Source: Mycobacterium sp. ITM-2016-00317 (GTDB taxonomy: Bacteria > Actinomycetota > Actinomycetes > Mycobacteriales > Mycobacteriaceae). Taken from it: a stretch of 64,000 nucleotides of DNA. The notes beneath the pieces are model-generated. The model searched no databases and had not been told where the DNA came from. It worked only from the letters and a program-made list of their open reading frames with translations. This document shows, in pieces, positions 16,406 to 41,803 of this stretch (position 1 is the first letter of the stretch; each line of letters starts with the position of its first letter). The DNA lies in the NCBI RefSeq assembly GCF_002968295.1, contig NZ_CP134399.1:4092001-4156000 (forward strand). Reading direction: 5' to 3'. The position numbers and the translations under genes were made by a program.

Positions 16406-17142
16406 CGCTCCAGGGCAAGGTCGCCTTCGTCGCCGGTGCCAGCCGCGGCATCGGCGCCACGGTGGCGACCGCACTGGCCCGCGCCGGAGCGTCGGTGGCC
16501 GTGGCCGCCCGCTCCGAACAGGAGGGGAAGCTGCCCGGCACCATCGGCTCTGTCGCGCAACGTATCTCCGCCCTCGGCGGGCGCGCACTGCCCGTGGTGT
16601 GCGATGTCACCGATGAGGAATCCGTCGACGCCGCGGTCGCCGCGACGGTGGCCGAGTTCGGCGGCATCGACATCCTCGTCGCCAACGCCGGGGTGCTGTG
16701 GCTCGGGCCGATCGAGTCCACGCCGCTGAAGCGCTGGCAACTGTGCCTCGACGTCAACACCACCGGCGTCTTCCTCGTCACCAAGGCGGTGATCCCGCAT
16801 GTCCGGGCCCGCGGCGGTGGCTCCCTGATCGCGGTGACCACCACCGGGGTCGCGATGACCGACCACGGCGCGAACGCGTACTGGGTGTCCAAGGCTGCCG
16901 CGGAGCGGCTGTATCTCGGCCTGGCCGCGGACCTGAAGCCCGACAACATCGCGGTGAACTGCCTGAGCCCGTCCCGGGTGGTGCTGACCGAGGGCTGGCA
17001 GGCCGGCGGCGCAGGTATGGAGATCCCGCCGGAGATGGTCGAGCCGCCCGAGGCGATGGCCGACGCCGCGGTTCTCCTCGCGGGTCAGGATGCCTCGGGC
17101 ATCACCGGCACCATCCAGCGCTCCGAGGAACTCACCCGCTAG
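16402..17142 (+). CDS. SDR family oxidoreductase
   Basis: A 246-residue SDR starting with GTG in a four-base overlap. GASRGIGATVATAL near residue 13, NAGV, and the catalytic YWVSK. The C-terminus lacks the usual VDGG and ends in GTIQRSEELTR, similar to HSDL-like SDRs that act on acyl-CoA or hydroxy acids. It is the last gene of the pair; downstream is the stem-loop and IS110 insertion. Confidence 0.88.
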   Translation: MTLQGKVAFVAGASRGIGATVATALARAGASVAVAARSEQEGKLPGTIGSVAQRISALGGRALPVVCDVTDEESVDAAVAATVAEFGGIDILVANAGVLWLGPIESTPLKRWQLCLDVNTTGVFLVTKAVIPHVRARGGGSLIAVTTTGVAMTDHGANAYWVSKAAAERLYLGLAADLKPDNIAVNCLSPSRVVLTEGWQAGGAGMEIPPEMVEPPEAMADAAVLLAGQDASGITGTIQRSEELTR

Positions 17143-17377
17143 ACCTGACGTACGACTGTGGACCCCTTCGGGCGCGAGCGTGCGTGTCTGCGGGCGACAC
17201 ACCGAAGATCATCCAAAGTTTGCGCACGCTCGATGCCGCCGACAGCCGAAGACCCGAGGGCCTTCACCGACGCAAGCCGGCGACCGTTCGCGCCCGGCAT
17301 GCGGTATGCGGCCGCCAGATGCCAGTCGCGAGCGTGCGCGAAATCAGCACAGAGCACGGCGATTTGCCCGCAGACAC
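17143..17377. other. Noncoding spacer left of the IS110 element
   Basis: No gene is seen here. It holds an intact stem-loop at 17,175-17,232 and the left arm and loop of a second, inverted copy that the IS element interrupts (arm 17,327-17,337). Open frames across it have no start signals and no family features. Function: probably transcription end of the SDR pair. Confidence 0.6.
17175..17232. terminator. Stem-loop between converging genes
   Basis: Perfect 10-base arms CGAGCGTGCG (17,175-17,184) and CGCACGCTCG (17,223-17,232), with an internal GTGTC/GACAC pair. There is no U-tract, as usual in mycobacteria. It may terminate the SDR operon, and it is the intact sister copy of the stem-loop split by the IS element. 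Confidence 0.5.
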
Positions 17378-17384
17378 TCAGTGT

Positions 17385-17600
17385 GAGGGTGGACGGTGCC
17401 GCTGTGCGGTGGTTGGGTCTTCTCACCTGGTGTCTGGCTCCTGCAGACACTGCCTTCGTGGCGTTCGTGCGTTGTGCCGACATTAGGTGGGAAGGACCGA
17501 CCGGCAAATGACCTGATAGGAGCGTGGCACCGCCCCCACTGAGATATGTCCTGCCGGCCAGGCCCGACCTTCACCCTCATCCCTCTGATGAAAGAAGGCA
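17385..17600 (+). ncRNA. Candidate IS110 bridge RNA
   Basis: The noncoding left end contains, in order, four short segments that match what a bridge RNA needs. GCAGACAC (17,443-17,450) equals the target's left flank (17,370-17,377). CGTGC (17,466-17,470) is complementary to the right flank GCACG (18,684-18,688). ATAGGAGC (17,516-17,523) equals the element's right terminus (18,673-18,680). CACTGA (17,537-17,542) is complementary to its left terminus TCAGTG (17,378-17,383). GTGTCTG/CAGACAC (17,430-17,450) can form a 7-bp hairpin. The target-loop-then-donor-loop order is that of the IS621 bridge RNA. RNA ends are not known. Confidence 0.6.
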
Positions 17601-17606
17601 CCGTCC

Positions 17607-18671
17607 ATGGTGGTCGTTGGAACCGATGTACACAAGCGCACTCACACCTTCGTCGCCGTTGATGCGGTCGGGCGCAAACTCGCTGAAAAGGTCGTACCTG
17701 CCACGACGGGCGGGCACCTCAAGGCGTTGGCGTGGGCGCGCCAAGAGTTCGGCAACGACCTGCTGTGGGGTATCGAGGACTGCCGCAATCTGTCGGCGCG
17801 TTTGGAACGTGATCTGCTTACCGCCGGTCAGTCGGTGGTACGGGTCGCCCCCAAACTCATGTCGCAGAGCCGCGCCTCGGCACGAACCCGCGGCAAGTCC
17901 GATCCGATCGATGCGTTGGCGGTCGCGCAGGCGGTGCTGCGGCATCCCGATCTGCCGATCGCCGCCCATGACGCGATCTCGCGTGAATTGAAGTTGTTGA
18001 CTGATCGCCGTGAAGACCTTGTCTGCCAGCGCACTTCGACGATCAACCGCCTTCGGCAGCGGGTTCATGAGCTCGATCCCGCTGCCGAACCCAAGCCTGC
18101 ATCGCTGCACCGCGCCAATCCCTGCGCCGTGTTGAGCGCGTGGTTGGACACTCAATCGGGAGTGCTGGCCGAGCTGGCCCGCGATGAGCTCGCCGACGTG
18201 ATGCGCCTGACCGAGGCCATCGACGCGTTGGCTGCCCGTATCGGTGAGCGCGTCCGCGAGGTAGCCCCATCCCTGCTGGCACTGCCTGGCTGCGGTGAGC
18301 TCACCGCGGCCAAAATCGTCGGCGAGACCGCGACCATCAGCCGGTTCCGCAGCGAGGCCGCGTACGCCCGCCACACCGGGACCGCCCCGATCCCGGTCTG
18401 GTCCGGAAACACCGCGGGCCGAGTCCGGCTCAACCGCTCAGGCAATCGTCAACTCAACGCCGCGCTGCATCGCATCGCCATCACACAGATCCGACTAACC
18501 GACAGTGCCGGACAGCGTTACTACCGCAACCGTCTCGCCGACGGCAAAGCCACCAAGGAAGCCCTGCGCTGCCTCAAACGCCACCTCGCCCGCACCGTCT
18601 ACCGCCGCCTACACGCTGACGAGCACCCCCGAGAAAGCCACCCCAAACGCGACACACCAGCCGCCGCTTGA
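17607..18671 (+). CDS. IS110 family transposase (DEDD recombinase)
   Basis: A 354-residue transposase. The N-terminal RuvC-like DEDD domain shows Asp7 (GTDVHK), Glu57 (WGIEDC), Asp99 and Asp102 (KSDPID). The C-terminal Transposase_20 domain holds LPGCGELTAAKIVGE and PVWSGNTAGRVRLNRSGN, where Ser266 is the likely catalytic serine. Length and intact motifs suggest a complete enzyme. The ATG has AAAGAAGG 8-10 bases upstream. It works with the left-end RNA for RNA-guided recombination if this element behaves like IS621. Confidence 0.95.
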   Translation: MVVVGTDVHKRTHTFVAVDAVGRKLAEKVVPATTGGHLKALAWARQEFGNDLLWGIEDCRNLSARLERDLLTAGQSVVRVAPKLMSQSRASARTRGKSDPIDALAVAQAVLRHPDLPIAAHDAISRELKLLTDRREDLVCQRTSTINRLRQRVHELDPAAEPKPASLHRANPCAVLSAWLDTQSGVLAELARDELADVMRLTEAIDALAARIGERVREVAPSLLALPGCGELTAAKIVGETATISRFRSEAAYARHTGTAPIPVWSGNTAGRVRLNRSGNRQLNAALHRIAITQIRLTDSAGQRYYRNRLADGKATKEALRCLKRHLARTVYRRLHADEHPRESHPKRDTPAAA

Positions 18672-18683
18672 CATAGGAGCAAT

Positions 18684-18694
18684 GCACGCTCGCG
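18684..18694. repeat. Right arm of the stem-loop split by IS110
   Basis: GCACGCTCGCG, perfect complement of the arm CGCGAGCGTGC at 17,327-17,337, which lies on the other side of the element. The two arms formed one hairpin before insertion. Confidence 0.75.
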
Positions 18695-18715
18695 AAGAGG
18701 ACCCCTCGTGCAGTC

Positions 18716-19480
18716 CTACTTCTTGGCGATCAGGCCGTCGACGATCTTGTTGAACTCGGTGGTGCCGAACGACACGTACTCGGCGAGGTTGGCGTAATCC
18801 AGCGACGCCATCACCGACTTCTCCAACTGGATGTTCATCAGCCGCTTGGTCGCCTCGACCGCCTGCTGCGGCAGCTCCATCATCTTCTTCGCGCACGCGA
18901 TCGCCTCGGCCACCGGATCGTCGACCACGTGGTTGGCCAGGCCCAGCTCGACGGCACGCTGGGCCTTGATCCGCACACCGGTCAGCGCGAACTCTTTGGC
19001 CTGCAGCAGGCTGATCTGCGAACCCCAGACCAGCGGGCCGCCGTCGGCCGCCACCAGGCCGATCGACACGTGCGGGTCGGCGAAGAACGCGTTCTCGGCG
19101 ATATAGACCACGTCGGACAGCGCCGCCAGGCTGCAGCCCAGCCCGACAGCCGGGCCGTTCACCGCGGCGATCACCGGGATCCGGCAACGCAGCATGCCGA
19201 TCACCAGGTCGCGGCCGTGCTTGATCGTCTTCTGGCGCAGCGCTTCGTCGTTGCGCAGCTCGTCGAGGTAGTTGAAGTCGCCGCCGGCCGAGAACGCCCG
19301 TCCCGCACCGGTGATGACGGCCGCGCGCGCGCCTGCGTCCTCGTTGAGCTCATCCCAGATCTTGGCCAGACCGACGTGCAGGTTGTCGTTGACCGCGTTG
19401 AGGTCGTCCGGCCGATTCAACGTGATGATGCGCAGCGCACCGTCGGCGCGGACGTCGATCTCTTCTGGCATTCCGTACAT
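18716..19480 (-). CDS. Crotonase (enoyl-CoA hydratase/isomerase) family protein
   Basis: A 254-residue crotonase. The oxyanion segments are present (GAGRAFSAGGDFNYL and AVNGPAVGLGCSLAALSDV). The two glutamates used by classical hydratases are not: by alignment from memory GGCELA reads GCSLA, and PEI reads PHV in FADPHVSIGL. It is therefore probably not a simple hydratase; crotonases with these changes act as isomerases, decarboxylases or C-C hydrolases. Last gene of a four-gene operon with two acyl-CoA dehydrogenases and a CoA ligase; gap of 9 bases to the upstream gene. Confidence 0.88.
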   Translation of the reverse strand: MYGMPEEIDVRADGALRIITLNRPDDLNAVNDNLHVGLAKIWDELNEDAGARAAVITGAGRAFSAGGDFNYLDELRNDEALRQKTIKHGRDLVIGMLRCRIPVIAAVNGPAVGLGCSLAALSDVVYIAENAFFADPHVSIGLVAADGGPLVWGSQISLLQAKEFALTGVRIKAQRAVELGLANHVVDDPVAEAIACAKKMMELPQQAVEATKRLMNIQLEKSVMASLDYANLAEYVSFGTTEFNKIVDGLIAKK

Positions 19481-39986: not shown

Positions 39987-41803
39987 GCGACGCAAGGCCC
40001 GACATCGTCATCATCATGACCGACGAGGAACGGGCGGCACCGCCCTACGAATCCGATGCGGTCCGCGCCTGGCGGCGCCGCACACTGGTCGGCAGGAACT
40101 GGTTCGACGACAACGGGGTCAGCTTCGCCCGCCACTACACCGGTTCACTCGCCTGTGTGCCGTCCCGGCCCACCCTGTTCACGGGCCAGTATCCCGACCT
40201 GCACGGCGTGACGCAGACCGACGGTCTGGGCAAGGCCTACGACGATTCCCGCCTGCGGTGGCTGCGCCCCGGCGAGGTGCCGACGCTGGGCAACTGGATG
40301 CGCGCCGCGGGCTACGACACCCACTACGACGGCAAGTGGCACATCTCCCACGCCGATCTGACCGACCCGGGCACCGGGCAGGCGCTGGCCACCAACGACG
40401 ACCGCGGGGTGGTCGACCATGCCGCCGTGCGCCGGTATCGCGACGCGGATGCCCTTGCCCGGTACGGCTTCTCGGGCTGGGTCGGACCGGAACCGCACGG
40501 CGCCAAGCTCTCCGACGCCGGGATACGGCGCGATCCGCTGATCGCCGACCGGGTGGTCGCGTGGCTCGACGACCGCTACGCACGCCGACGCGCCGGTGAC
40601 CCCGCCGCGATGCGCCCCTTCCTGCTGGTGGCGAGCTTCGTCAATCCGCACGACATCGTGCTGTTCCCGGCCTGGGCACGGCGTAACCCGTTGCCCGCAT
40701 CCCCGCTGGATCCTCCCCCGGTGCCGGCCGCACCGACCGCCGACGAGGATCTGTCCACCAAACCCGCTGCGCAGAGCGCGTTCCGCGACGCCTACTACTC
40801 CGCTTACGGCCCGGCGAGGTTCGTCGAACGGACCTACCGGCGCCACGCCCAGCGCTACCGCGACCTGTACTACCGGCTCCACGCCGAGGTGGACACGCCG
40901 ATCGACCGGGTTCGGCGCGCGGTCACCGAGGGCGGCACCGGCGCCGGACCCGACGACACCGTGCTGGTGCGCACCGCCGACCACGGCGACCTTCTCGGCG
41001 CCCACGGCGGCCTGCATCAGAAGTGGTTCAACCTCTACGACGAGGCCACCCGCGTCCCGTTCGTCATCGCCCGGGTCGGCAGCCGCCCCACCACGCCGCG
41101 CACCGTCACCGCGCCGACATCGCACGTCGACGTCGTGCCGACCGTCCTCGCGGCGGCCGGTGTCGACCTCGACGCGACCGCCGCCGCGCTGGCGCAGACG
41201 TTCTCCGAGGTACACCCGCTGCCCGGTCGGGATCTGATGCCGGTCGTCGACGGCGGCCACGCCGACGACGACCGTTCGGTGTATCTGATGACCCGCGACA
41301 ACGTGCTCGAAGGCGACACCGGCGCTTCAGGTCTGGCGCGCTCCCTGAAGTTGACCTCGAAAGTCCCCGCGCCGCTGCGCATCCGGATCCCGGCGCACAC
41401 CGGCGCCAACTTCGAGGGGCTGGTCACGCGGGTCGCGGCGGGCACGGCGGGCGGGCGCGGGCACATGTGGAAGCTGGTGCGCTCGTTCGACGATCCGGGC
41501 ACCTGGACCGAACCCGGCGTGCGGAACCTGGACTCCGACGGCATCGGCGGAGCCACCTACCGGACCGATCCGCTCGATGACCAGTGGGAGCTCTACGACC
41601 TCAGCGCCGATCCGACCGAAGCGCACAACAGGTGGACCGATCCGCAACTGCGGGAACTGCGCGCGCATCTGCGGACCCGCCTGAAACATGTGCGCGCCGA
41701 AGCCGTTCCGGAGCGCAACAGGCCGTGGCCGTACGTCCGCCGTCAGCCGCCGCAACCGGCACGGCGATCGCCGATGCGTGCGTTGCGGCGGCTGCTGGGC
41801 TGA
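39983..41803 (+). CDS. Sulfatase (formylglycine type)
   Basis: A 606-residue alkaline-phosphatase-superfamily sulfatase. The Cys to be converted to formylglycine is Cys58 in ACVPSRPTLFTGQYP (CxPSR). Metal and active-site regions include DIVIIMTDEE near the start, YDGKWHIS and TADHGDLLGAHGG. No signal peptide is seen, so it is cytosolic unless exported otherwise. It cleaves a sulfate ester, perhaps of an aryl or choline-like compound. Preceded by a tiny upstream ORF; its stop lies one base from the convergent amidohydrolase end. Confidence 0.93.
   Translation: MSDARPDIVIIMTDEERAAPPYESDAVRAWRRRTLVGRNWFDDNGVSFARHYTGSLACVPSRPTLFTGQYPDLHGVTQTDGLGKAYDDSRLRWLRPGEVPTLGNWMRAAGYDTHYDGKWHISHADLTDPGTGQALATNDDRGVVDHAAVRRYRDADALARYGFSGWVGPEPHGAKLSDAGIRRDPLIADRVVAWLDDRYARRRAGDPAAMRPFLLVASFVNPHDIVLFPAWARRNPLPASPLDPPPVPAAPTADEDLSTKPAAQSAFRDAYYSAYGPARFVERTYRRHAQRYRDLYYRLHAEVDTPIDRVRRAVTEGGTGAGPDDTVLVRTADHGDLLGAHGGLHQKWFNLYDEATRVPFVIARVGSRPTTPRTVTAPTSHVDVVPTVLAAAGVDLDATAAALAQTFSEVHPLPGRDLMPVVDGGHADDDRSVYLMTRDNVLEGDTGASGLARSLKLTSKVPAPLRIRIPAHTGANFEGLVTRVAAGTAGGRGHMWKLVRSFDDPGTWTEPGVRNLDSDGIGGATYRTDPLDDQWELYDLSADPTEAHNRWTDPQLRELRAHLRTRLKHVRAEAVPERNRPWPYVRRQPPQPARRSPMRALRRLLG

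Follow-up and report, generated by a model that had tools for sequence, protein, structure and literature searches.

The window, i.e., the whole 64,000-nucleotide stretch of Mycobacterium sp. ITM-2016-00317 DNA analysed here, contains an intact IS110-group insertion sequence at 17378–18683. The initial annotation had recognised an IS110 element and carried it to 18688; the element stood, while its right limit did not, the true end being 18683 (GGAGCAAT) and 18684–18692 (GCACGCTCG) being target. By our reading, the flanking frames appear to specify a short-chain dehydrogenase-like protein (ending at 17142, + strand) and an enoyl-CoA hydratase-like protein (ending at 18716, − strand). The element, its ends and its target comprise:

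17378..18683, + strand: IS110-group insertion sequence, 1306 bp, exact ends TCAGTG...GGAGCAAT; two genomic copies with the same ends and three orthologous empty sites
17607..18671, + strand: DEDD recombinase/transposase, 354 amino acids (PF01548 and PF02371 above cut-off; NF033542), related by sequence to the solved structures of ISCro4 and IS621 (PDB)
18668..18683, + strand: right end, TTGACATAGGAGCAAT, with TTGACA (−35-like) and the left-donor sequence; the final AT is donor positions 8–9
17385..17390, + strand: GAGGGT, weak −10-like place of a putative circle-junction promoter, 17 bases past TTGACA in the joined ends
17370..17377, + strand: left target, GCAGACAC, from the flank, the second copy and the empty sites
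18684..18692, + strand: right target, GCACGCTCG, from the flank, the second copy and the empty sites
17327..17377, + strand: left part of the split hairpin-like repeat, the right part being 18684–18695 (limits by eye)
17175..17191, − strand: a second copy of the target repeat, uninterrupted and a short way upstream, from the repeat-pattern search

A search of the 6.06-Mb host genome, a single contig, revealed two copies of the element, about 99% identical and alike at their ends. Aligned with their flanks, these agree at 1317 of 1327 positions; the remaining ten are five substitutions and five gap positions. The reading frame is open in both, and the two elements occupy different copies of the target repeat, with the same orientation relative to it. 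There are 229 noncoding bases to the left of the gene and 12 bases after its stop codon; a long noncoding end upstream of the gene and a short right end place the element in the IS110 rather than the IS1111 group. The product possesses a DEDD (RuvC) domain and a Transposase_20 domain with the catalytic serine, as in the IS110 family, and scores 192 bits against a cut-off of 140 with NF033542 (IS110 family RNA-guided transposase). Residues D7, E57, D99, D102 and S266 lie, by our reading, in motifs that appear to match those of the IS621 catalytic residues D11, E60, D102, D105 and S241 (named in PMC11208158).

The noncoding left end carries a predicted bridge RNA with the following parts:

17378..17561, + strand: left end with the predicted bridge RNA (covariance model, 162 bits, this sequence being among those that built the model)
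17397..17411, + strand: 5' stem-loop, helix 1 of the consensus fold
17424..17489, + strand: target-binding loop (outer stem, LTG side, inner stem, RTG side), helices 3 and 4
17443..17451, + strand: left-target guide (LTG), GCAGACAC plus T, an exact match that co-varies with the left flank
17466..17472, + strand: right-target guide (RTG), CGTGCGT, of which five bases face the right target and two face positions 9–8
17473..17474, + strand: handshake bases TG, complementary to donor positions 7–6 (A, C) and not to the target
17502..17550, + strand: donor-binding loop (approximate limits), helices 5 and 6
17516..17523, + strand: left-donor guide (LDG), ATAGGAGC, an exact match, backed by the ends of relatives
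17537..17543, + strand: right-donor guide (RDG), CACTGA plus a G facing position 9, an exact match, backed by the termini of relatives

The four guide matches reported in the initial annotation (LTG at 17443, RTG at 17466, LDG at 17516 and RDG at 17537) were all confirmed, and their order and strands fit at every place those of the IS621 bridge RNA, which carries LTG, RTG, LDG and RDG in this order and strand sense (PMC11208160). The match lengths of 5–8 bases given there hold for two of the guides; the other two are longer, the RTG pairing over seven bases, not five, with ACGCACG of the uninterrupted target, and the RDG having a seventh base. This base, G (17543), faces position 9, which is C in the target and T in the donor (a G-U pair); the two RTG bases for positions 9–8 face C and A in the target and T and A in the donor, again with a G-U. 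The T that follows 17443–17450 is the same as the first base of the element. A hairpin competing for the LTG had also been pointed out; its arms, GTGTCTG...CAGACAC, are indeed present, but in relatives the 5' half is constant while the guide changes.

The matches were compared with chance by shuffling the left end, its first 40 bases excepted, 3000 times with dinucleotides kept; guide order was not required, the target was taken with AC and the right donor with the preceding C. The longest exact matches observed for LTG, RTG, LDG and RDG were 8, 7, 8 and 7 bases, lengths reached singly in 52, 151, 12 and 223 of the 3000 shuffles and jointly in none.

Relatives were drawn from 198 genomes of the genus, 87 of which gave a match and had two candidates apiece scored, and from the best 80 of 115 relatives in a contig search, with 20 further stretches. 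A recombinase match was present at 131 loci. Of these, 28 were dropped; in the 103 kept, the left end could be read and 12 or more bases of left flank were available, and 88 of the 103 are non-redundant. The target-loop segment was cut out by anchors in 80 of the 103, giving 70 non-redundant loci (50 of type B, 11 of type A, 5 of type C and four without a right end). Type assignment followed chiefly the final four bases of the right end (A, CAAT or AAAT; B, AAAC; C, CTAT) and not the target. The remaining 23 loci (distant rows, Williamsia and L030) were read with other anchors and are absent from the LTG test. Shuffle counts are not to be taken as probabilities, because the sequences are related; a small number of genomes, chiefly M. 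triplex, supplies many of the rows, and the guide anchors were set by hand.

In these aligned copies the target guides co-vary with the target flanks, as the initial annotation had anticipated for a true bridge RNA, rather than sitting beside targets that do not match them. At the best of five offsets and over all 65 guide/target pairs, the LTG agreed with its own target at 8.17 of 10 bases, against 5.30 with shuffled partners (0/5000 as high). In the same test, type A gave 9.0 against 7.06 (0/5000) and type B 7.94 against 5.92 (0/5000; best fit at offsets 1 and 2), with a weaker result for type C, 8.8 against 7.92 (78/5000). Without an offset, the type-A LTG averaged 9.1 of 10 against the ten bases that precede the cut (11 rows: five at 10, three at 9, two at 8 and one at 7). 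For example, the element described here has CTGCAGACAC for the target CCGCAGACAC; that of M. senegalense, cutting the same repeat four bases further right, has AGACACGCAC for AGACACGCAC, and that of M. novocastrense has AGACCCGCAC for AGACCCGCAC. The type-A RTGs CGTGC, CGCGC and CGAGC face GCACG, GCGCG and GCTCG, respectively, at 5/5 each, and L008 matches at 3/5. Over the 49 distinct RTG pairs of all types, 3.82 of 5 bases were complementary against 2.18 when shuffled (0/10000); type B gave 3.96 against 3.48 (3/5000), type A alone, with four pairs, a weak 4.5 against 2.94 (209/5000), and type C has one guide only and is uninformative.

Three parts make up the RNAalifold consensus of 44 left ends: a 5' stem-loop, a target loop on a long stem, and a donor loop; target and donor loop each contain an inner stem. 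Over 41 distinct sequences 99.0% of 1621 cells are paired, compared with 33–48% when partners are slid. Within-column shuffles still paired 98.3%, because many columns hardly vary, and none of 500 was as high as the observed value. Cells changed on both sides numbered 10 against 2.0 in shuffles (0/500), and pairs changed on both sides only 3 of 40 against 1.5, a number reached in 54 of 500 shuffles. The covariance model was run on 23 of the 27 loci L086–L112 (L096, L100, L103 and L110 being left out) and on L129–L132. It matched 17 of the 23 distant left ends, none of which had been used in building it, at E<=0.001; matches in L107, L098, L109, L086, L102 and L093 were weaker. L129 and L132 gave partial matches below 0.001, that in L132 on the minus strand of its stretch, and L130 and L131 gave no match below 0.001. 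Within its own genome the model found, at E<=0.001, the two element copies and nothing else, and Rfam 15 gave no match at the gathering score in the left end. The two-loop fold for which the initial annotation had proposed a covariance model is therefore conserved in related copies: a 5' stem-loop and two internal-loop hairpins are kept, with few pairs changed on both sides. Folding of the single sequence (z −2.77; 2 of 200 shuffles as stable) yielded a different shape with the LTG paired; the consensus fold was preferred, since among relatives the stems persist but the guide varies.

The donor guides change together with the element ends, the RDG in five states and the LDG in a few. Right donor and RDG pentamers were read in 112 rows: TCAGT/ACTGA in 92, TGAGT/ACTCA in six, TTAGT/ACTAA in two, and TTTAT/ATAAA and TAAAT/ATTTA in one each, all at 5/5. 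In total 102 of the 112 rows match at 5/5, two (one of them L062) at 4/5, and eight at 0–2 of 5; we think the last represent a missed anchor, several of their tails showing ACTGA, and L112 shows ATTGA facing TCAAT. The LDG was read by an anchor on a partly fixed motif, and the donor-guide figures carry no shuffle. L086 has the LDG ATAGAAGC with the end ATAGAAGC, L093 has ATAGCAGC (one mismatch), and L088 and L094 have ACAGGAGC with the end ACAGGAGC; the LDG of L112 has an extra base, and elsewhere this guide hardly varies.

The handshake was read in 104 of the 119 rows with a right end (row counts include redundant ones), by comparing the tail of the target loop with donor positions 9 to 6. 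The combinations GTTT-AAAC (59 rows), GATG-CATC (16) and GTTG-CAAC (6) are complementary at 4/4, and GTTG-CAAT and GTAG-CTAT (five rows each) at three positions plus one G-U; weaker ones are ATTC-CAAT at 3/4, ATAT-CAAT at 2 and GTTT-CTAT at 1. The anchor misreads three ATTC rows, which read 4/4 with the earlier anchor. For the 16 distinct combinations the mean was 2.62 against 2.06 when shuffled (8/10000), the bases facing donor positions 6–7 being complementary to them. This count replaced an earlier, poorly anchored one (339/10000 shuffles as high) that misread type-D and Williamsia rows. The handshake rule described for IS621 (PMC11208158) holds here and extends over the core. In the window element, the tail GTTG forms three Watson-Crick pairs and one G-U with the donor CAAT; the guide tail is complementary to the right junction of the product, where the RTG and the two handshake bases form eight Watson-Crick pairs and one G-U with CAAT-GCACG.

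The target is a dispersed, hairpin-like repeat of about 60 bases. The genome has 14 exact occurrences of its 17-base pattern, or 36 if one mismatch is allowed (control, 7), and GCAGACACGCACG occurs uninterrupted 10 times (control, 1). Thirteen of the 14 exact copies were compared; their resemblance spans about 60 bases, and the arms lie near CGAGCGTGCG and CGCACGCTCG; their predicted folds, made without a shuffle control, vary. Similar 60-base stretches exist in other genomes of the genus, among the matches listed, and a search of the PMC literature for ten letters of the repeat together with mycobacteria found no paper. In three genomes (L145, L155 and L160) the repeat stands uninterrupted beside the same enoyl-CoA hydratase-like gene, and these empty sites show a specific target without duplication.

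The difference between the flanking core dinucleotides (AC/AT), listed in the initial annotation as a limit, proved real. The three orthologous empty sites read AC at positions 8–9 and the right end of the element reads AT; therefore the left junction is that of the target and the right junction that of the donor. An origin of the right-junction AT in the target was ruled out by the AC of the empty sites and by the open base of the repeat pattern, which is C in all 14 exact copies and in 20 of the 22 that have one mismatch, the other two having G and T. Opposite position 9 the guide of this element has a G, which is able to pair with C or T. Among 83 non-redundant insertions with both ends the core dinucleotide is shared in four and differs in 79. 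The present element, with AC against AT, lacks a core of the IS621 type, in which target and donor have the same dinucleotide. Differing junction dinucleotides are what inheritance of the top strand would give.

Very probably, then, this IS110-group insertion sequence is one built for movement through recombination guided by a bridge RNA, an explanation that rests on complementarity, co-variation, fold and empty sites. The suggestion of a mycobacterial RNA-guided recombinase with a hairpin target thereby gained support from the co-variation, the conserved fold and the copies of the repeat. The left end would encode a bridge RNA of 5' stem-loop, target-binding loop and donor-binding loop, whose LDG and RDG would base-pair with the ends of the element as joined in its circular form. 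The recombinase would join target and donor with the top strand crossing after position 9, so that the left junction would keep the AC of the target and the right junction the AT of the donor. Transcription from the circle junction, protein binding, catalysis and mobility are steps that we infer.

Compatible with this account of how the element was built to work is the improbable alternative that it is a bridge-RNA element by descent that no longer moves, its guides and fold being recent relics. In its favour, there are only two copies in the genome, but they are as similar as described above, both of their reading frames are open with the catalytic motifs kept, and each occupies a different copy of the repeat that the guides match. 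Slightly less probable still is that the RNA picks the target alone, as in the seekRNA view, the protein recognising the ends and the donor guides being incidental; a 58-nt RNA of ISEc21 with target-matching regions is enough for transposition (PMC11187229), yet in distant relatives the RDG changes with the left terminus in its five 5/5 states, and the target-loop tail follows donor positions 6–9. That the four matches arose by chance in a GC-rich, hairpin-prone left end is scarcely credible: single seven-base matches do occur in shuffles and the LTG is paired in the minimum-energy fold of the single sequence, but no shuffle reached all four together, and the guides co-vary with their targets in relatives.

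As a bridge-RNA element it resembles IS621 of E. coli in its predicted left-end RNA, which has two internal loops besides a 5' stem-loop, in guide order and strands (PMC11208160, PMC11208158), in the top-strand cut after position 9, in handshake bases that face donor positions 6–7, and in targeting a palindromic repeat that is dispersed (REP in the case of IS621). It differs in that IS621 prefers a CT core in both partners, as against AC in the target and AT in the donor here, although positions 6–7 of IS621 also differ between partners (PMC11208158). The IS621 recombinase has 328 residues compared with 354, the best sequence match being 3.6e-10 over the C-terminal part. ISEc21 and ISMch6 (seekRNA, PMC11187229), compared by description, share the upstream noncoding region, a bottom-strand match before a top-strand match, the lack of target duplication and the natural redirection of a relative; the transposases of their cluster (345–385 amino acids) are in the size class of the window recombinase. 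Their target lies inside IS3-family transposase genes (PMC11187229), whereas here it is a hairpin-like repeat between genes.

The surprise of this analysis is a set of sister elements at apparently leaderless gene starts. Type-B insertions fall two bases before ATG or GTG, which occupies bases 3–5 of the right flank in 50 of 50 non-redundant cases, with no TTG. In 48 of the 50 left flanks (25, 20 and 3) TANNNT lies 4–6 bases before the cut, L120 and L047 being the exceptions; further upstream in the same flanks it occurs at 6 of 4207 places. Neither feature is present in types A (0/11) and C (0/5). The downstream frame is open for at least 60 codons in 46 of 50. The right end of these sisters sets AGGAG six bases before the start codon, and a leaderless gene may consequently become leadered. 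Mycobacterial leaderless translation starts at ATG and GTG, not at CTG or TTG (PMC4633059), and TANNNT beside a frame is the −10 box of leaderless genes in Deinococcus (PMC12340547); it would appear that type B aims at leaderless gene starts. PMC articles on IS110 insertion sequences and leaderless genes, judged from titles and the beginnings of abstracts, contained nothing on such targeting.

The RNA scaffold of these sisters is nearly the same as that of the window element. IS900 inserts next to start codons. Nothing on the target of IS900 was found in the PMC literature searched, the passages of PMC7823733 included. IS900 and other mycobacterial IS110 elements are like the present one in family, in host and in lying mostly outside genes (PMC8141618).

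The gene struck by L045 was matched in 51 of 78 genomes, and 30 orthologous starts were read, 21 with TANNNT at a 6–8-base spacer and nine without; a first reading covering 7 of the 30 loci (four with TANNNT) was replaced by this one. L045 and L021 are type-B insertions in two genomes at the start of seemingly the same gene (MCRLFGLHAG...). The left end of L042 has no target-binding loop, keeps the donor loop and still precedes a start codon; it may be an assembly error, coming as it does from a low-coverage metagenome contig. Most of the distant relatives L099–L112 lie at a similar target, TTCTTCGCG^GCGGAGCTCGACCG; by our reading this type-D target, or one like it, would be the orfA/orfB junction of IS3-family elements.

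In a tree of 80 recombinases, type A (with L008 and unlabelled relatives) forms one group of 10 rows (100/99), and type B occurs in several places, with a Streptosporangiaceae row among the deepest. On this tree start-codon targeting would look older than the hairpin target, but the rooting is at the midpoint and type B needs at least six label changes, partly because of unlabelled rows. Three relatives from Chloroflexota and Dormibacterota look alike, and the lineage is otherwise Actinomycetota.

We lean, with some reserve, towards a joint reading in which the window element belongs to a re-aimed branch of an old IS110 lineage. The ancestral bridge RNA may have been programmed against a functional signal and not one sequence, the LTG reading the −10 box (TANNNT) and the RTG the ATG or GTG of leaderless genes, with flexible spacing (4–6 bases from box to cut), no need for a common core dinucleotide, and a right end that places AGGAG six bases before the start codon; the type-A branch would have been re-programmed from such an ancestor onto the hairpin-like repeat found across the genome, with two registers that are offset by four bases.

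The relatives form a natural series in which one little-changed RNA scaffold carries guides for different targets, gene starts among them. Guide changes are matched at target, donor and handshake positions, which makes the guide-reading rule testable far from IS621, and insertions without a shared core bear on the programmability of such recombinases. The series also suggests that guide RNAs can be aimed at promoter and start-codon signals.

Elsewhere in the window, positions 40154–40198 (minus strand), in a frame read as sulfatase-like, matched the Rfam entry for Ms_AS-5, a small RNA of mycobacteria, at a borderline score (46.5 bits, cut-off 46).
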